From Myxococcales bacterium (GTDB lineage: Bacteria; Myxococcota; Myxococcia; Myxococcales; Myxococcaceae), in the NCBI GenBank assembly GCA_016191815.1, contig JACPVI010000026.1:1-64000 (forward strand): DNA of 64,000 bases. The letters are read 5' to 3'. Shown here one piece after another: positions 14,631 to 24,349 of this stretch (the stretch's first letter is position 1; every line of letters starts with the position of its first letter). The notes under the pieces are model-generated. The model was not told the origin of the DNA. It saw nothing but the letters and a program-made list of their open reading frames with translations, and did no database searches. Made by a program: the position numbers and the translations under genes.

Positions 14631-15497
14631 ATGAGCCTCCTCGAAGCGGTGGTGCTCGGGCTGGTACAGGGCCTCACCGAGTTTCTGCCGATCAGCTCCA
14701 CCGCCCATCTGCGCCTCGCCCCCGAGCTGTTCGGCTGGGCGGATCCCGGCGCGGCGTACTCGGCAGTGATCCAGCTCGGGACGGTGGCGGCGGTGGTGAT
14801 CTACTTCTGGCGGGATCTGATCAAGCTGACCCGGGCTTTCTTTTCCGGGCTGTGGCGGCGCGAGCCTTTCGATACCCTGGAGGCGCGGCTCGCCTGGTTC
14901 GTGCTTTTGGGGACGATTCCGATCGGCGCCTTTGGGCTCGCGTTCAAGGACGCCATCGAGACTTCGCTCAGGTCCCTGTACGTGGTCTCGGCCGCGCTGA
15001 TCGCCCTGGCGGTGGTGCTGTTTCTCGCCGAGCGGTTCGCCTCCCACCGCCGGACGGTGTCGGAGATGACGCTGCGCGACGGATTGATCATCGGGGCGTG
15101 GCAAGCCCTGGCGCTCATCCCCGGCTCCTCGCGCTCGGGCACCACCCTCACCGGAGGACTCGCCCTGGGCTTCAAGCGGGAGGACGCCGCCCGCTACTCC
15201 TTCCTCCTCTCCATTCCGGCCACCGCGCTGGCGGGCCTGTTCGAGCTCAAGCACCTCCTCCAGGCGAGCGAGCGACCCTCGGTGCTGGCGATGGGGGTAG
15301 GGGCGGCGGTCGCCTTCGGCTCGGGGATGGCGGCGATCGCCGGGCTATTGCGCTTCCTCCGCACCCGCACCACCCTGGTGTTCGTCGCCTACCGGATTGC
15401 CCTGGGGGCGGCGCTGCTGCTCCTGCTTCAATCGGGGGCGTTGAGTCCTTCGTCGGGCGCCGCGGAGCCTGCGACGGCCGCCCGGAGCGCGGGATAG
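14631..15497 (+). CDS. uppP: undecaprenyl-diphosphatase
   Basis: Removes a phosphate from undecaprenyl pyrophosphate, recycling the lipid carrier for peptidoglycan and polysaccharide synthesis; also gives bacitracin tolerance. The 288-residue inner-membrane protein has about eight helices and both signature loops: LTEFLPISSTAHL at residues 16-28 and PGSSRSGTTLTGG near residue 165. ATG 14631 begins right before the first helix. The Nudix gene starts two bases after its stop and manC follows, so carrier recycling and GDP-mannose supply may share a transcript. Confidence 0.95.
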   Translation: MSLLEAVVLGLVQGLTEFLPISSTAHLRLAPELFGWADPGAAYSAVIQLGTVAAVVIYFWRDLIKLTRAFFSGLWRREPFDTLEARLAWFVLLGTIPIGAFGLAFKDAIETSLRSLYVVSAALIALAVVLFLAERFASHRRTVSEMTLRDGLIIGAWQALALIPGSSRSGTTLTGGLALGFKREDAARYSFLLSIPATALAGLFELKHLLQASERPSVLAMGVGAAVAFGSGMAAIAGLLRFLRTRTTLVFVAYRIALGAALLLLLQSGALSPSSGAAEPATAARSAG

Positions 15498-15499
15498 CG

Positions 15500-16078
15500 A
15501 TGGAGCCTGTATTCGAAGAGCTTCGCCGGCGGCTTTCCGAGCGGCCAGGACAGTCGCTGAACCTGCCCGGGCTCGAGCTTCGCGACTCGGCGGTGCTGGT
15601 GCCGCTATTTCTCCGCGGGGGAGAGCTGCACGTGCTCTTCACCAAGCGGCCGAAGACGCTGCGCAGCCACGCGGGGCAGATTTCCTTTCCCGGGGGCGCG
15701 CGGGAGTCGATGGACCTGACGCCACTGCACACCGCGCTCCGTGAGGCGCGGGAGGAGCTGGGCATCCCCCAACAGAGGGTGGAGGTGCTGGGGCTGCTCG
15801 ATGAGATTCCGACCATCACCCAGTTCCGCATCACTCCGTTCGTGGGAGTCATCCCCGCGGACCTTCGGTATCAGCCGAGCGAGGAGGTGGAGCAGGTGAT
15901 CGAGGCCAGGGTGTCGGAGCTGGCGAACCCCGCCATCCAGCGGGTGGAGAAGCGGGTGGTATGGGAGCAGGAGCGGGAGATCTACTTCTACGACTTCGGC
16001 CCTCACCTCATCTGGGGAGCGACCGCCCGCATCCTCAGGGGCCTGCTGGCCATCCTCGCGGAGCTTGTGCCTCGCTAG
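15500..16078 (+). CDS. Nudix hydrolase, CoA-pyrophosphatase type
   Basis: A 192-residue protein. The stretch LFTKRPKTLRSHAGQISFPG is the UPF0035 signature that precedes the Nudix box in CoA pyrophosphatases (NudL/YeaB/PCD1). The box follows as G-G-A-R-E...-REAREELGI with the metal-binding Glu residues intact. Family members cleave CoA and its derivatives to 4'-phosphopantetheine and 3',5'-ADP. ATG 15500 lies two bases after the uppP stop; longer upstream frames run over uppP and are rejected. Confidence 0.88.
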   Translation: MEPVFEELRRRLSERPGQSLNLPGLELRDSAVLVPLFLRGGELHVLFTKRPKTLRSHAGQISFPGGARESMDLTPLHTALREAREELGIPQQRVEVLGLLDEIPTITQFRITPFVGVIPADLRYQPSEEVEQVIEARVSELANPAIQRVEKRVVWEQEREIYFYDFGPHLIWGATARILRGLLAILAELVPR

Positions 16079-16112
16079 GCACGTCCCGTTCACCGGCGCC
16101 GAAAGGCCGCGT

Positions 16113-17210
16113 ATGGTGCGCTCGATGGTGCGTCGCGCCTCCACGGGAAAGCTGTTTCTGGTGATCATCGCCGGCGGCTCGGGCACTCGCTTCTGGCCGC
16201 TCTCGCGGAGGCGCCGGCCCAAGCAACTCTTGCCCTTGGTGACCGGCTCGCCGCTCATCGCCGACACCGCCGCTCGGCTGGCCGCGCTGGCTCCCCCTTC
16301 CAACACCTTCGTGGTGTGCGGGAAGGCCCACGCGGCCCAGGTGCGGAGGATGCTTCCCAGGCTTCCGAAGCGAAACGTGCTGGTCGAACCGGTGGCGCGG
16401 AACACCGCTCCGGCGATCGCCTTGGCCACGGCCCACGTGGCCTCGCGCGAGCCGAACGGAGTGGTGGCCGTCCTGCCGTCGGATCAGCACGTGGCCGATG
16501 CGGCGTCGTTCGCTCGCGCGCTCCGGTCCGCCGCTCGCGCTGCCGAAGAGGGCTACATCGTCACCTTGGGCATCAAGCCGACCCGGCCGGAGACGGGCTA
16601 CGGCTACATCCGGCTGGGAGGCCCGGTGGCGGAGGGCGCGCGCGAGGCGAGCGCCTTCGTGGAGAAGCCCGACGCCAAGACCGCCCAGCGCTACCTGAGC
16701 TCGGGCGAGTACCTGTGGAACGCGGGCATCTTCGTCTTCCGCGCCGAGGTGATGCTGCGCGCCTTCCGCGAGCACATGCCCGAGCTGTTCGAGGGGCTGG
16801 AACGGATCCGCTCGGCGCTGACGGGCCGCCGCTACCGGTTGGTGCTGGCGAGGGAGTTTCCCCGCATGCCGTCCGTCTCCATCGACTACGGGGTGGCGGA
16901 GAAGGCGCGGAACGTGGCAGTGGTCCCGGGCGACTTTGGCTGGTCGGACATCGGCTCCTTCGCGGCCATCTCCGAGGTGCGGCCGGCCGACTCGCGCGGA
17001 AACGTGGTGGCGGGGGAGGGCGCCATCGTGCTCGACAGCGACGGCTGCGTGGTGATGGGCGGGCGCCGGCCGCTGGCGGTGGTGGGAATGTCGGGGGCGG
17101 TGGTGGTGGACGCCGGAGACGCGGTGCTGGTGTTGCCCAAGGACCGCTGCCAGGACGTGCGGAAGGTGGTCGAGGCCCTGAAGGAGCGAAAGCTCGAGGA
17201 CTACCTCTGA
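16113..17210 (+). CDS. manC: mannose-1-phosphate guanylyltransferase (GDP-mannose pyrophosphorylase)
   Basis: Makes GDP-mannose from GTP and mannose-1-phosphate for surface glycans. The 365-residue protein is the short, monofunctional form without a phosphomannose-isomerase domain. The nucleotide-binding signature IIAGGSGTRFWPLSR is near the N-terminus, followed by LPSDQHV, GYGYIRLG, AFVEKP and PGDFGWSDIGSF, all in family order. ATG 16113 has an AAAGG upstream; a second ATG at 16125 is also possible. Its substrate is made by the phosphomannomutase at 20926, separated from it by two CotH genes. Confidence 0.93.
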   Translation: MVRSMVRRASTGKLFLVIIAGGSGTRFWPLSRRRRPKQLLPLVTGSPLIADTAARLAALAPPSNTFVVCGKAHAAQVRRMLPRLPKRNVLVEPVARNTAPAIALATAHVASREPNGVVAVLPSDQHVADAASFARALRSAARAAEEGYIVTLGIKPTRPETGYGYIRLGGPVAEGAREASAFVEKPDAKTAQRYLSSGEYLWNAGIFVFRAEVMLRAFREHMPELFEGLERIRSALTGRRYRLVLAREFPRMPSVSIDYGVAEKARNVAVVPGDFGWSDIGSFAAISEVRPADSRGNVVAGEGAIVLDSDGCVVMGGRRPLAVVGMSGAVVVDAGDAVLVLPKDRCQDVRKVVEALKERKLEDYL

Positions 17211-17264
17211 CCCGGCGTTGCGCTCGCACTGCGCCCCCTGGCTGATGCGGTAGCTCGGCCCCCC

Positions 17265-18956
17265 TCAGCGGATTTCCCAGACGGATGGATCCGCCGCCGA
17301 GCGCGCGTAATGCCTCCCGGGGGGCAGCTTCCCCAGGTAGAGCGCGTCGATCATCCCGGCCACGCTCACTCCATTGAACAGGCCCACCTCGCCGTCCTCG
17401 CTGAAGGCCACCGAGAGCTGGCTCGCGGTGAAGCGCACGCTCTCGCCGGGCTTCATCGTCCGTGACGGGAGATTCCGAACCAGCCCCTTCCTCAGGTTGG
17501 TGGTCACGCCCTTGCCGTCCAGCGCCACCGGCGCGGAGCCGTAGTTCTTCAGCTCCACCCACCCCTGCGCGGCGTCGACCTCGGACAGAGCCAAGGAGGG
17601 CTTCATCTTCTTCAGCTTCTCCAGCTCGCCACGCACGAACGGCACCCTCAGCGACACGAAGTCCTTCATCCACTGCCGCCCGGCGGCGAACTTGGCCTGA
17701 TCGATGTACGGGTCCTCCCTCATGTAGGAGGTGATGAGCGAGTAGGTGGCGTCGATGCGCGCGTGCATCTCCGCCGGGGTGAACAGCTCGTCCAGCGCCT
17801 TCTCGGTGGTGCGGATGAGCCGCTGCCTTAGAGCCGGGTTGAGGGCCACCCGGGTGTTAAGGTTGGAGAAGACCGGAAGGTAGCCCGCATAGAGGTCCTT
17901 CCGGCGGTTGTACATGGTCTCCAGCCAGCCGTCGGTGAGGCTGAAGATGACCAGCGGGTGCCTGGTGGGCGGCCTCGCGGTCAACCCGTAGCTCGGCCAC
18001 CAGCGGGCGTCCACGTTGTTCAAGTCCCACGGGACGTAGGACCACCGGCCGGTGACGCGGTCGTGGATGAAGTAGCTCTCCGAATCCTCGATGTAGTCGT
18101 TGGAGATGAGCGCATCCATCGCCATCGAGCGGATCAGGCTCTCCAGCTCCAGCCGCGCCTCCCAAATGGCCTCGAGCTGCGGCTCCGGCGTGTGGTTGAT
18201 GGCCCGGAGCACCTCGTGGAGCGCGGCGTCGCCCTCGGTCTCGTTGGTCTTCTTCTTCCAGTTGCCCTGGTAGGGCACCTTCCAGGTCTTCATCTCGCAG
18301 TCCTTCCACCCGCACCGGTAGATGGAGGCGTCCTGATCCGCGAAGTGGTGCGCCTCGAGGAAGCGGCGATCGACCTTCTCCAGGTCGAGGAACACTCCCT
18401 CGAACTTTCCGTTGATCACCACCCGGACGTAGCGGGCGCGAGGCGCCTCCACCTCCATCGCCTCCAGGAGGTCGTAGGCGATCTTCTCCGCCATCATCGT
18501 GCAGTCCTGGTACTCGGCGATCAGCGCCACCCGACGGCGCCCCTGGAAGCGGAGGTCATGGAAGTCGAGGTTCCAGCTCCTCTTGGGGAAGAAGCGCGCC
18601 GAGGCTCCGCGCAGCTCCACCATCACCGGCATCGTCGCCCCCTGGAACCTGAAGGTGGCCGGCTGCTCCGGCGCGTACGGATCCTGCGCGAACAGGTCCA
18701 TCGTCACCTGGGGAATCTCCAGCTCGTAGAGCGGGACGTCCGCCTGCAGCGCCGGCATCCGGAAGGGGGGCGGCGGAGCGGCCTGGCTGCTAAAGCCCAC
18801 CCCGAGCGCGGACACGGGAGCGGCGCGGTCGATGGCGGGGGTGTTGCGCGGCGCCTCCACCACCTCCGAGGATTGGGGGTTTCCGGGAATGAATTCTTCT
18901 CCCGGGCCACAGGCGCACGCCAAGGCCAGACAACAGAAGACGAGGGCTCGGTTCAT
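17265..18956 (-). CDS. CotH-kinase-family lipoprotein A
   Basis: A 563-residue protein with a lipoprotein signal (lipobox LACAC at about residues 12-16). The CotH domain follows, an atypical protein kinase first known from Bacillus spore coats. Visible landmarks are FPKRSWNLDFHD (Lys/Arg of the ATP loop), VVINGKFEGVFLDLEKVDR, and the hallmark WSYVPWDLNNVD carrying the catalytic/metal Asp. The C-terminal 120 residues look like a lamin-tail-like beta domain (AQGWVELKNYG). It probably phosphorylates secreted or surface proteins; spore coat is possible in a sporulating myxobacterium. ATG 18956 is chosen by the signal peptide. Divergent from a paralogue at 19153. Confidence 0.85.
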   Translation of the reverse strand: MNRALVFCCLALACACGPGEEFIPGNPQSSEVVEAPRNTPAIDRAAPVSALGVGFSSQAAPPPPFRMPALQADVPLYELEIPQVTMDLFAQDPYAPEQPATFRFQGATMPVMVELRGASARFFPKRSWNLDFHDLRFQGRRRVALIAEYQDCTMMAEKIAYDLLEAMEVEAPRARYVRVVINGKFEGVFLDLEKVDRRFLEAHHFADQDASIYRCGWKDCEMKTWKVPYQGNWKKKTNETEGDAALHEVLRAINHTPEPQLEAIWEARLELESLIRSMAMDALISNDYIEDSESYFIHDRVTGRWSYVPWDLNNVDARWWPSYGLTARPPTRHPLVIFSLTDGWLETMYNRRKDLYAGYLPVFSNLNTRVALNPALRQRLIRTTEKALDELFTPAEMHARIDATYSLITSYMREDPYIDQAKFAAGRQWMKDFVSLRVPFVRGELEKLKKMKPSLALSEVDAAQGWVELKNYGSAPVALDGKGVTTNLRKGLVRNLPSRTMKPGESVRFTASQLSVAFSEDGEVGLFNGVSVAGMIDALYLGKLPPGRHYARSAADPSVWEIR

Positions 18957-19152
18957 GGTGGTGGGCCACAGCAAGCAGGGTGCCGAAGCCAGTGCCCTCC
19001 CGCCGGCCCACCGAGCGTCCCTTGCGTGACTGCCGCTCTCTCCGACGGATGCGAATTGGGAAGACCTTGCGTCCCGAGGGGAAGCGCCCTTCACACTGAG
19101 CGCACCTGGCGCCGGCTGGATGAGAGGCCCAGCGATTGCTGTGCCCTCGGGC

Positions 19153-20865
19153 ATGAGACGAATCTCGGTCGCTCTGGTGTCGCTGTGCCTGTCCTGCGGG
19201 AGGTTGCCTTTGCCGCAGGAGGGCGAACCCCCGGGGATTGAGCCCGTGGACCCCGGCGGCTCGACTGGACAGCCGCCGCTCACCCTCGAGCGGGTGCCTC
19301 CGGCGTTGCCGGCGCCCGGGGTGGAGTCGCGGCCGGCCCAGCGCGCCGACTGGCCCCCGCTGCAGGAGTCATTGCCCAGCTATGCGTTGAACATCTCCCA
19401 GGCGAACCTGGATCTGTTGGAGATCAACATCAAGAGGCGTGACTTCGAGGTGCCGGCGCAGTTCCTCTTCGGCGGGCGGACTTGGAACGTGAGCGTCCGC
19501 TACCGCGGCCGCCACACCCGCTATCTGCCCAAGAAGTCATGGCAAGTGAATTTCCCTGACGGGGACCTCTTCTTCGGCAAGCGCTCGCTCGAGCTGCTCG
19601 CCGAGTGGAAAGACGGGGGAATCCTCACCGAGAAGCTCTGGTACGACCTCTACGCGGCCTCGGGCGTCCGGGCGCCTTCGGTGCGATACGTCAACCTCGA
19701 GCTGAACGGGAAGTTCTACGGGGTCTTCACCGAGATCCAGGCGGTGAAGAAGGAGTTCCTCCGCACCCACGGCTTCCACCACGACGGCGACATCTACCGA
19801 TGCGGGATGTACGACTGCGAGCTGCGCGAGCTGCCGCAGCAGCGCTGGATGCAGCCGTGGGCGAAGCGCACCAACGAGCGGGCACCCTGGGACGGGCTCT
19901 GGGCCTTCCTGGCCGAGGTCAACCGCTCGCCCCAGGGCGACTTCCGCGCGCGACTGGAACGGGTGCTCGAGGTGGAGGCCTACCTCCGCTTCATGGCGGT
20001 GGACGAGTTCATCGCGATGTACGCCACCGGCGACTCGCGGAGCTTCCTGGTCTACGACCCGGGCACCGGAAAGTGGGCCTACGTGCCGTGGGACCTGAAC
20101 AACGCCGTCTCGCTCTACAACCGGACCAACAGCATCAACCAGGGCACCAAGCATGACCGGCCGCTCAAGGATTTCACTCCTTGGGACCCGCGCGTCTATT
20201 CGCTGGCCATCGGCCGGAGAATCGATGACCCGGAGATGACTCCCACCTGGAGCGTCCTCGCCACCCGGGTGCTGGAGGACGAGGGGTTGCGCTCGCGCTA
20301 CGTCGCCATCCTCCGCGAGCTGCTCGACACCCGCTTCAGAGTGGAGGAAATGGGGCCACGGATCGATCGGATGCGCTCGCTCATCAAGGACGACCTTTTG
20401 CGCGACCCGTGGATCGACCAGGCCTTCGCCGAGCGGAGCCCCGACTTCCTCAAGCGCTACGTCACCGCCAGGAGAGATTGGATGCTCGCCCACTTGGGAG
20501 AGATCGAGCGCCACAACGACTCCCGGCTGCTGATCGACCGGGTCGGCCTCGATGCCTCCGGCGCCCCGTTCGTGCAGCTGTACAACCCGACCTCCGCGCC
20601 GCAGAGCCTGGCCGGCCTCTACCTCAGCTTCGATCTCCGCCACCCGAAGCAGTCCGCCGCACCGGCGCTCTCGGTGCCGCCGGGCGACTTCGTCGCGGTG
20701 CGGCCTCCGCTCTCCTTCATGGCGGACCGACCCGAGGTGGGGCTGTTCGACGCGTCGGGGACTTCGCCGCTCGACTTGCTCTACCCGGGGCCGCTCTCCG
20801 CGGGGCAGGCGTACGGCCGGAGCCCGCGCGGAGCGGAGAGCTTCATGCCCTACGGCGGGCCGTAG
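19153..20865 (+). CDS. CotH-kinase-family lipoprotein B
   Basis: A 570-residue paralogue of the divergent neighbour. It has a lipoprotein signal (VALVSLCLSC) and a Pro-rich linker. The CotH domain carries YLPKKSWQVNFPDGDLFFG, ELNGKFYGVFTEIQAVKK, and WAYVPWDLNNAVSLY with the conserved Asp. Both paralogues share a Cys pair in the pattern IYRCGxxDCE in the middle of the domain, probably a disulfide. The C-terminus again has a lamin-tail-like beta domain (FVQLYNPTSAPQSLAGLY). ATG 19153 is preferred over 19120 because it starts the signal peptide. The 196 bases between the paralogues probably hold two promoters. Confidence 0.85.
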   Translation: MRRISVALVSLCLSCGRLPLPQEGEPPGIEPVDPGGSTGQPPLTLERVPPALPAPGVESRPAQRADWPPLQESLPSYALNISQANLDLLEINIKRRDFEVPAQFLFGGRTWNVSVRYRGRHTRYLPKKSWQVNFPDGDLFFGKRSLELLAEWKDGGILTEKLWYDLYAASGVRAPSVRYVNLELNGKFYGVFTEIQAVKKEFLRTHGFHHDGDIYRCGMYDCELRELPQQRWMQPWAKRTNERAPWDGLWAFLAEVNRSPQGDFRARLERVLEVEAYLRFMAVDEFIAMYATGDSRSFLVYDPGTGKWAYVPWDLNNAVSLYNRTNSINQGTKHDRPLKDFTPWDPRVYSLAIGRRIDDPEMTPTWSVLATRVLEDEGLRSRYVAILRELLDTRFRVEEMGPRIDRMRSLIKDDLLRDPWIDQAFAERSPDFLKRYVTARRDWMLAHLGEIERHNDSRLLIDRVGLDASGAPFVQLYNPTSAPQSLAGLYLSFDLRHPKQSAAPALSVPPGDFVAVRPPLSFMADRPEVGLFDASGTSPLDLLYPGPLSAGQAYGRSPRGAESFMPYGGP

Positions 20866-20925
20866 CTGCCGCTCGAAACGGGCGGCCGTGCTAAGCCGTG
20901 CCTCCCCACGGGCAAGGAGGCAGCG

Positions 20926-22284
20926 ATGAACCCGCACATCTACCGCGAGTACGACATCCGCGGGCTGGTGGACAAGGACCTCACGGTCGAGGTGGTAGAG
21001 AAGCTGGGCCTCGGTCTCGGCACCACCGCGAGGCGCCACGGAGGGCGGACGGTGGTGGTCGGCCGCGACTGCCGCGAGAGCTCCACCCGCTTCCGCGAGG
21101 CGCTCTGCAAGGGCATCACCTCCACCGGCATCCACGTGGTGGACATCGGGGTGGTGCCGACCCCGCTCACCTACTTCGCCGCCAACACCCTCCCGGTGGA
21201 CGGGCTGGCGATGATCACCGGCAGCCACAACCCTCCCGAGTACAACGGCTTCAAGCTGGGGCTGGGCAAGGCGACCTTCCACGGCGCGGAGATCCAGGAG
21301 CTGCGCCGGCTCATCGAGTCCGGGCGCTTCGAGCGCGGCGCGGGCCGCATCACCCAGCACGACATCGTCACCCCCTACTGCCACTTCGTCCGCCAGACGG
21401 TGAGGGTGGGCCGCAAGGGGATGCGGATCGTCATCGATGCCGGCAACGGCACTGGCGGAGAGGTGGCGGTGCCGCTGTTCCGCTCGATGGGCTTCGAGGT
21501 GGTGCCGCTCTACTGCGAGATGGACGCGCGCTTCCCGCACCACCACCCGGATCCGACGGTGCTCAAGAACCTGGAGGACCTGATCGCCGCGGTGAAGCGC
21601 GAGAGGGCCGAGGTGGGCATCGCCTACGACGGAGACGCGGACCGGATCGGCGTCATCGACGACGAGGGAAAAGTGCTCTGGGGAGACCAGCTGATGATTC
21701 TCTTCTCCCGCCACGTGCTCAGGGAGTCGCCGGGCGCGGCCATCGTGGGCGAGGTGAAGTGCAGCTACACGCTCTACGACGACATCCGGGCCAAGGGCGG
21801 CAAGGCGGTGATGTGGAAGGCGGGCCACTCGCTCATCAAGGCCAAGATGAAGGAGGAGAACGCCGAGCTGGCCGGCGAGATGAGCGGCCACATCTTCTTC
21901 AAGAACCGCTACTACGGCTTCGACGACGCCATCTACTCCTCGGCGCGGCTGCTGGAAATCCTCACCCACGAGAAGGGCCGGCTCTCGCAGCTCATGGCCG
22001 ATGTGCCCAAGACCTTCGCCTCTCCGGAGCTGCGGGTGGACACGGTGGAGGAGAAGAAGTTCGAGATCGTCCGCCGGGCCACCGAGGCTTTGAGGGCGGC
22101 GGGCCACTCCATCGTGGAGGTGGACGGGGTGCGGGTGACCTTCCCCGACGGCTGGGGCCTCATCCGCGCCTCCAACACCCAGCCCATCCTGGTGCTCCGG
22201 TTCGAAGCCGCCTCGAAGGAGCGGTTGGGAGAGATCCAGCGCCTCATCGAGGCCACGCTGGAGAAGGTGAAGCGCGAAGTTTAG
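20926..22284 (+). CDS. manB: phosphomannomutase/phosphoglucomutase
   Basis: Interconverts mannose-6-phosphate and mannose-1-phosphate (often glucose phosphates too). The 452-residue cytosolic enzyme has all four family loops: active Ser in AMITGSHNPPEYNG, metal loop AYDGDADRIGVID, sugar loop GEMSGHIFFKNRYYG, and phosphate loop RASNTQPILVLRFEA. ATG 20926 follows a GGAGG-like site by seven bases and begins with the usual IYREYDIRG. With the pyrophosphorylase at 16113 it completes mannose-6-phosphate to GDP-mannose. The order in the window suggests CotH gene B was inserted into, or recruited by, this locus. Confidence 0.94.
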   Translation: MNPHIYREYDIRGLVDKDLTVEVVEKLGLGLGTTARRHGGRTVVVGRDCRESSTRFREALCKGITSTGIHVVDIGVVPTPLTYFAANTLPVDGLAMITGSHNPPEYNGFKLGLGKATFHGAEIQELRRLIESGRFERGAGRITQHDIVTPYCHFVRQTVRVGRKGMRIVIDAGNGTGGEVAVPLFRSMGFEVVPLYCEMDARFPHHHPDPTVLKNLEDLIAAVKRERAEVGIAYDGDADRIGVIDDEGKVLWGDQLMILFSRHVLRESPGAAIVGEVKCSYTLYDDIRAKGGKAVMWKAGHSLIKAKMKEENAELAGEMSGHIFFKNRYYGFDDAIYSSARLLEILTHEKGRLSQLMADVPKTFASPELRVDTVEEKKFEIVRRATEALRAAGHSIVEVDGVRVTFPDGWGLIRASNTQPILVLRFEAASKERLGEIQRLIEATLEKVKREV

Positions 22285-23392: not shown

Positions 23393-24349
23393 GTGACTGC
23401 CTCGCCCGCTTCGACCCTGGGAATCGACCTCGGAGGAACCTACGCCAGAGCCGCGGTGGTGGATGCCGCTGGCGCCATCCTCTCCTCGGCCAAGTCCGCA
23501 CTCGAGGACCGCTCTCCGCCTTCGGTGGTGGAGTCCGTCTCCCTCGCTGTCGACGAGGCGCTCGCCGGGGCACCGGGGGTGGAGGTGGGCGGCTGCGGCG
23601 TCGGCGCCGCCGCCCAGCTTCGCGGACGGACTGGCCACGTGCTGGTGGCGCCCAACCTCGGCTGGCGAGAGGTGCCGCTCGGCGCGCTGCTCTCCGGGCG
23701 CCTGCAAAGGAGCGTGGTGGTGGTGAACGACCTCTCCGCGGCCGCCTGGGGCGAGCTCAAGGCCGGCGCCGCGCGCGGCGAGCGCGATGTCTTCGTCGTC
23801 TTCGTCGGCTCGGGAGTGGGCAGCGCCATCATCGCCAACGGGCAACTGGTGCACGGCGCCACCGGAGTGGCCGGGGAGCTCGGGCACACCAAGGTCGTCC
23901 CTGGAGGAAGGCGCTGCGGATGCGGCGAACAGGGCTGCCTGGAGGCGTACGCCGGCGGCCGGAACCTCATCCTCCAGATGAACGAGGCGGTGGCCGAGCA
24001 CCGCGGCGGCCGATTGCTCGAGCTGGCTGGCGGCGATCCTTCGCGGCTCTCCCCCGCGGTGCTGGAGCAGGCCGCGAAGGAAGGAAACCCGGCGGCGAAG
24101 GAAATCTACGAGCGCGCCGCGGGGTACCTGGGCCTCGCCTCGGCGAACATGGTGACGGTGCTCAACCCCGCCCTGCTCCTGCTCGGCGGGGGCGTCTTGG
24201 CCCACGCTCCGGGACTCTTCCGGAGCGTGGAAGAGGCGGTGGCGCAGCTGTCTTCCTGGGTGAGCCGGCAGGAGTTGAAGGTGCTCCCGGCGGCGCTGGG
24301 AGACGAGGCCGGCATCATCGGCGCGGCGCTTTTGGCCCGGGAGGGCTGA
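23393..24349 (+). CDS. ROK-family sugar kinase (glucokinase-like)
   Basis: A 318-residue cytosolic kinase, probably phosphorylating glucose or a related hexose with ATP. The N-terminal phosphate loop GIDLGGTYARAAVVD is followed by DLSAAAWGE, GVGSAIIANG, the ROK signature GVAGELGHTKV, and the zinc-binding CGCGEQGCLEAYAG. No helix-turn-helix precedes the kinase, so it is an enzyme rather than a ROK repressor. I start at GTG 23393; the longer open frame from 23120 overlaps the Cys-rich fragment and lacks coding sense. Confidence 0.88.
   Translation: MTASPASTLGIDLGGTYARAAVVDAAGAILSSAKSALEDRSPPSVVESVSLAVDEALAGAPGVEVGGCGVGAAAQLRGRTGHVLVAPNLGWREVPLGALLSGRLQRSVVVVNDLSAAAWGELKAGAARGERDVFVVFVGSGVGSAIIANGQLVHGATGVAGELGHTKVVPGGRRCGCGEQGCLEAYAGGRNLILQMNEAVAEHRGGRLLELAGGDPSRLSPAVLEQAAKEGNPAAKEIYERAAGYLGLASANMVTVLNPALLLLGGGVLAHAPGLFRSVEEAVAQLSSWVSRQELKVLPAALGDEAGIIGAALLAREG

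Follow-up and report, generated by a model that had tools for sequence, protein, structure and literature searches.

Does a kinase fold work outside a Gram-negative cell by a chemistry other than that of the known enzyme? A divergent gene pair, here called cotH1 and cotH2, makes a clear case for asking this: family models label both products "CotH kinase", yet the catalytic residues kept by the known enzyme are replaced, and the replacement residues are near-constant across a subfamily whose members come mostly from predatory, fruiting myxobacteria. The pair lies on contig JACPVI010000026.1 of a Myxococcales bacterium (assembly GCA_016191815.1; genome of 6.77 Mb), and the window that we analysed is the whole stretch of 64,000 nucleotides, positions 1 to 64,000, of this contig. 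A sequence-only reading had taken the two genes for paralogous lipoprotein kinases that phosphorylate developmental or matrix proteins at the cell surface. The reading that we favour, with a probability of about 0.45, takes them for exported CotH variants whose catalytic loop was rebuilt, putative enzymes with altered catalysis or an altered donor, of which cotH2 would be tied to a mannose product.

cotH1: 17265..18956, minus strand, exported CotH-fold lipoprotein of 563 residues with a tail resembling a lamin tail domain (LTD), cotH1 clade (Pfam, AlphaFold2, structure match, tree).
cotH2: 19153..20865, plus strand, exported CotH-fold lipoprotein of 570 residues with an LTD-like tail, cotH2 clade (Pfam, AlphaFold2, structure match, tree).
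Intergenic region: 18957..19152, unstranded, 196 bp between the divergent start codons of cotH1 and cotH2.

The divergent frames and their 196-bp spacing from start to start were as first described, and the assignment to the CotH family and fold was borne out. Against the Pfam CotH family (PF08757, gathering score 23.8 bits), cotH1 scored 197.6 bits (E 5e-58, profile positions 1-318 of 322) and cotH2 scored 224 bits (E 4.3e-66, positions 1-322 of 322), both above the gathering score. Bacillus CotH (5jd9/5jda) was the sole sequence match of either protein in the PDB. AlphaFold2 models built from 38 related sequences for cotH1 and 50 for cotH2 reached a mean predicted local distance difference test score of 88.0 and 88.2, respectively. 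Consistent with a full-length domain match to Bacillus CotH (about 346 residues), the cotH1 model aligned to 5jd9 over 345 residues (VIA Z 38.9) and the cotH2 model to 5jda over 348 residues (VIA Z 40.1), each with a root-mean-square deviation of 2.1. Among solved structures the next fold for both models was CtkA, at Z 13-14. Fam20 secretory-pathway kinases are extracytoplasmic protein-kinase-like enzymes, some of which act on sugars; they matched at a Z of about 10, far more weakly than CotH, and form a separate sequence family. The name "CotH kinase" is here a fold assignment, not a demonstrated activity.

Unlike Bacillus CotH, cotH1 and cotH2 are exported lipoproteins with an N-terminal linker and an LTD-like tail. 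The beta-domain tail of the sequence-only reading holds in so far as the last 110 C-terminal residues are beta-rich. Its lamin-tail identity falls below the Pfam cut-off (PF00932, 18.9 and 19.5 bits against a gathering score of 34.3; E 0.002 and 0.0013), and Foldseek matched the tail weakly to the lamin-B1 tail (E 0.51, probability 0.69); the tail is LTD-like only. According to an excerpt of PMC6083626, the cellulosomal protein Cthe_0239 has the order LTD, LTD, Fn3, CotH, and so likewise joins a CotH domain to lamin-tail domains in a secreted protein; unlike cotH1 and cotH2, it is clostridial and cellulosomal, and the likeness is one of domain make-up.

We compared the catalytic residues across relatives. 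A profile of these proteins, run against 84,980 named genomes, returned 49 loci, nearly all from Myxococcota, with the motifs YRCGxx[DN]CE, [ED]D[SA]xS[YF] and PWDLNN common to most of them; cotH2 alone as the query of the genome scan found nothing, and the alignment query worked. One locus (L082), broken into two frames, was dropped, and L131, fetched as a comparison row, was moved to the subfamily for its subfamily motif. The resulting alignment set 51 subfamily rows against 30 comparison rows, namely 5jd9 and 29 Myxococcota frames. These 30 rows represent 28 distinct genes (L097/L134 and L100/L133 being doubled), and the fragment L027_10 was dropped. An excerpt of PMC7821199 reports that the D228Q and D251A forms of B. 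subtilis CotH are inactive, and excerpts of a review (PMC12189002) match CotH residues to D166, N171 and D184 of protein kinase A (PKA) and describe Tyr142 and Trp245 as an adenine sandwich. We located D228 and D251 in the sequence of 5jd9 ourselves, from their order and 23-residue spacing.

In an hhalign comparison the subfamily aligned to the comparison CotHs with E 7.5e-57 and no gap through the loop, with a confidence in the loop below that of its flanks. The D228 column held Asp in 30/30 comparison rows and in 0/51 subfamily rows, where it was Y 19, F 8, L 6, G 6, V 5, T 3, A 2 and I 2. The column equivalent to PKA N171 held Asn in 27/30 comparison rows and in none of the 51 subfamily rows (E 24, R 16, G 7, Q 3, S 1), and Asn remained absent from this position in all 51 under every alignment tried. 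The D251 column, in contrast, held Asp in 28/30 comparison rows and in 51/51 subfamily rows, and the adenine-stacking Trp (Trp245) was present in 27/30 and 51/51, respectively. Thus cotH1 and cotH2 resemble Bacillus CotH in keeping the Asp of PWD and the stacking Trp, and differ from it in that D228 and the N171-type Asn, with the roles excerpted in PMC12189002, are not conserved in place and that Tyr142 is replaced by an invariant Arg (cotH2 Arg216, 51/51; Lys in 24/30 comparison rows). The subfamily has near-fixed gains of its own, at D294 (49/51), S295 (46/51), S297 (47/51), N316 (51/51) and N317 (51/51), and WDLNN is invariant in all 51 rows.

cotH2 rebuilt loop, A291-T-G-D294-S-R296: 20023..20040, plus strand; residue 291 corresponds to CotH D228 (PKA D166) and residue 296 to the PKA N171 equivalent.
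cotH2 D314 of PWDLNN: 20092..20094, plus strand; the invariant equivalent of CotH D251 (PKA D184).
cotH1 D291 of EDSES: 18084..18086, minus strand; the counterpart of cotH2 D294.
cotH1 D311 of PWDLNN: 18024..18026, minus strand.

The conserved catalytic stretch of the sequence-only reading survives only in its PWD part; the catalytic loop that precedes it is not conserved, and an intact kinase active site is not supported, the D228/Asn pattern of CotH being missing across the subfamily. As for the key Asp residues in close homologues, the D251 type is kept in all 51 rows and the D228 type is lost or displaced. Canonical-type Myxococcota CotHs, such as L003 on contig C85 of the source genome, share the Pfam family with cotH1 and cotH2 but have either DxxxxN or a longer loop, and in most cases PWDx[DN]; the aligned ones are without PWDLNN.

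We propose that the rebuilding of the loop dates back to the clade's ancestor and that the new loop has stayed constant since. The nucleotide and metal pocket would be retained, organised by W313-D314-L315-N316-N317, and the displaced Asp294, with Ser295, Ser297 and the Asn pair, may stand in for the D-x4-N catalytic loop. On this proposal the proteins would act beyond the inner membrane, with substrates in the envelope or matrix, as enzymes still active with a changed catalysis or donor, and cotH2 would serve an envelope product that contains mannose and for which the man genes supply the precursor. The near-constant replacement residues point to an enzyme rather than to decay. A broader proposal, on which we would place low odds, is that the PWDLNN subfamily consists of extracellular kinase-like enzymes without a D-x4-N loop, whose relocated Asp/Ser loop and Asn pair may serve another chemistry or draw on a donor that is not cytosolic ATP, acting for example on mannose-containing envelope glycans or glycoproteins.

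Several observations weigh against the rebuilt-loop enzyme. The cheapest-gap MAFFT setting, one of six, sets D294 on the D228 column in 49/51 rows, and the subfamily hidden Markov model (HMM) places the canonical Asp residues loosely and scattered, so the D228-type Asp may have been shifted by an indel and not lost. For this reason the safe wording, as judged from the alignments, is that it was lost or displaced by about 3 residues, rather than absent. D294 itself is missing from 2 of the 51 rows (His in L076, Gly in L083), and the link to the man genes is missing for 8 of the 17 distinct cotH2-clade genes and is not obligatory. Finally, no ATP pool is known in the Gram-negative periplasm or surface, where lipoproteins reside.

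The sequence-only reading would have the pair as surface-exported Ser/Thr protein kinases of the usual CotH type; on that view the Asp merely shifted its place in the loop and D294 does the work of D228. Such kinases would account for the shared fold and the match to 5jda along the full length, for the D251 equivalent and stacking Trp in 51/51 rows and D294 in 49/51, and for the one MAFFT setting that superimposes D294 on D228. They are nevertheless unlikely: the metal-binding Asn is missing from all 51 rows in all alignments, no Asp stands in place of D228 by hhalign, by the canonical HMM or in 5/6 MAFFT settings, and a canonical Arg (5jd9 chain position 87, 28/30 comparison rows) is replaced by A, T, V or S in 49/51 subfamily rows. 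Plain protein phosphorylation is disfavoured by the missing residues and by the lack of known ATP beyond the inner membrane, and the surface phosphorylation of the sequence-only reading becomes doubtful for want of a known ATP pool there.

Evidence for export comes from the N-termini and from a cysteine pair. The lipoprotein signals proposed earlier were found in cotH1 (..LACAC-GPG, which fits a lipobox) and in 41 of the 43 relatives with a readable N-terminus, which passed the lipobox filter (L044, one of the two misses, has a lipobox by eye); the signal of cotH2 itself (..LCLSC-GRL) is weak and was judged by eye. PWDLNN and IYRCGxxDCE, including the internal Cys pair, were found in both proteins as originally noted.

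cotH2 Cys217...Cys222 pair: 19801..19818, plus strand; probable disulfide.
cotH1 Cys215...Cys220 pair: 18297..18314, minus strand.

Both cysteines were present in 39 of the 51 rows, neither in 11 and only one in 1, so that 11 of the 12 departures lose both, and the double losses sit at separate places in the tree (Corallococcus, the L065/L131 pair and L076). Paired loss of this kind is what one would expect if the cysteines form a disulfide, as they probably do, and fits an oxidising compartment. Where the cysteines are replaced as a pair, mostly as YRAGWKDTE (L059, L063, L065-L068, L070, L073, L075, L131), the rows fall in Corallococcus and one further branch. The canonical-type CotH on contig C85 also looks exported, with a lipobox-like N-terminus by eye, and export alone therefore does not exclude a kinase function.

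A pseudokinase or binding protein, which retains the fold to serve as a scaffold or adhesin at the surface and carries out no chemistry, would also be compatible with the loss of two classical catalytic positions. CotH proteins of Mucorales have been studied as virulence or invasin factors, a role that would suit such a protein, and a further copy in the source genome, the cotH1-like gene on contig C81, is without the active-site stretch and yet has an open frame. We consider this explanation quite unlikely, as WDLNN in 51/51 rows and D294 in 49/51 represent more constraint than a scaffold would need in the part of the cleft where the active site lies. In the C81 copy (L004, L135:8979-10553), an in-frame 86-residue gap removes the catalytic loop and PWDLNN and leaves the remainder intact; this may reflect either a genuine loss of the active site in nature or an error of assembly.

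The tree addresses how the two genes came to be neighbours. Its 80 rows omit L038, a duplicate of L104; of these rows, 74 form the subfamily as one group, with a support of 99 in the Shimodaira-Hasegawa-like approximate likelihood ratio test (SH-aLRT). Within it, the cotH2 clade comprises 18 rows, or 17 distinct genes (SH-aLRT 99), and the cotH1 clade 37 rows (SH-aLRT 100). Outside Myxococcota, the 49 loci included one from a metagenome-assembled genome of Chloroflexi and one from a record titled Comamonas (L057). The latter gene (Comamonas sp. KCTC 72670) lies inside the Myxococcus branch, and its assembly is probably mislabelled or mixed. The source genome has four CotH genes: cotH1, cotH2, the canonical-type gene on C85 and the cotH1-like gene on C81.

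A recent tandem duplication within the man locus, giving a co-regulated pair, would explain the adjacency of the genes and their shared 196-bp divergent region. It is very improbable, and we rejected it, given the 34% full-length identity between cotH1 and cotH2 and their separate clades; the two genes also occurred together in 0/62 other stretches, as far as each stretch reaches. The two genes belong to two old clades rather than being tandem duplicates; they would be anciently diverged members of a myxobacterial CotH lipoprotein subfamily with an LTD-like tail. As cotH1 stands beside cotH2 in the window only, co-regulation of the pair as a conserved feature was likewise rejected. A sigma-70 promoter scan of 17150-20950 gave 0 matches with 0.2 expected, and such a scan is uninformative for this bacterial group.

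The surroundings of the pair lead to the mannose link.

uppP/bacA: 14631..15497, plus strand, member of the conserved neighbourhood uppP-NUDIX-...-manC.
NUDIX hydrolase: 15491..16078, plus strand, member of the same conserved neighbourhood.
manC, mannose-1-phosphate guanylyltransferase: 16065..17210, plus strand, NTP_transferase and ManC_GMP_beta-helix domains, start codon uncertain.
manB, phosphomannomutase/phosphoglucomutase: 20926..22284, plus strand, PGM_PMM domains I-IV.
ROK-family sugar kinase: 23417..24349, plus strand, downstream end of the conserved man neighbourhood.

Pfam domains confirmed both flanks of the pair, manC and manB. The end of manC is 54 bp from the stop codon of cotH1, and manB begins 60 bp past the stop of cotH2 on the same strand. 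In seven other genomes, from Pyxidicoccus, Archangium and kin (L035, L036, L037, L038, L039, L102, L103), cotH2 lies downstream of manC, with manB further downstream in six; the stretch of L037 stops before that point. The manB spacing in relatives rests on gene calls, a start-codon pattern search having found none. In this family the genes are usually arranged as uppP, NUDIX, an MBOAT/GDSL pair in divergent orientation, manC, a gene for a Ser/Thr kinase, optional cotH2, manB and ROK. In the window neither the Ser/Thr kinase gene nor the MBOAT/GDSL pair was found, and cotH1 occupies the place of the former. Among the 17 distinct cotH2-clade genes, 8 (including that of the window) are in a man locus, 8 are elsewhere (L105-L112) and 1, on a short contig, is undecided (L040). 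When manC of 15 more genomes was inspected, cotH2 was present at one, probably the same genome as L036. We conclude that the link between cotH2 and the man locus is old but optional and that the pairing of cotH1 with cotH2 is local to the source genome. The literature matches listed for GDP-mannose in Myxococcus contained nothing on the present locus, and those listed for CotH in myxobacteria contained no study of a myxobacterial CotH.

The mannose link proposed for the pair thus applies to cotH2, for which it is conserved, and not to cotH1, whose kin often have other neighbours. In Myxococcus, Corallococcus, Pyxidicoccus and kin, genes of the cotH1 clade adjoin an M61/PD40-like protein, pbpC and alpha-2-macroglobulin (for example L051:5263-19802), families present in 22, 19 and 19 of the 63 stretches, respectively. 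As a check for this neighbourhood in the source genome, its best pbpC-like protein was only 39% identical. Myxococcus xanthus has a cotH1-clade gene (L051), and the man locus and the pbpC/alpha-2-macroglobulin locus offer two genetic handles on the subfamily in tractable organisms such as this one.

Two further features of the man locus were noted in relatives. An MBOAT acyltransferase and double-GDSL pair is divergent from manC in most of them (L035:600-4608 and equivalents), which suggests, from gene content, a possible acylation of a mannose-linked polymer. In Myxococcaceae a Ser/Thr protein kinase gene lies between manC and manB (for example L102:6666-8561 and L035:7482-9593), and the kinase of L102 carries a PilZ domain, a possible link to cyclic-di-GMP.

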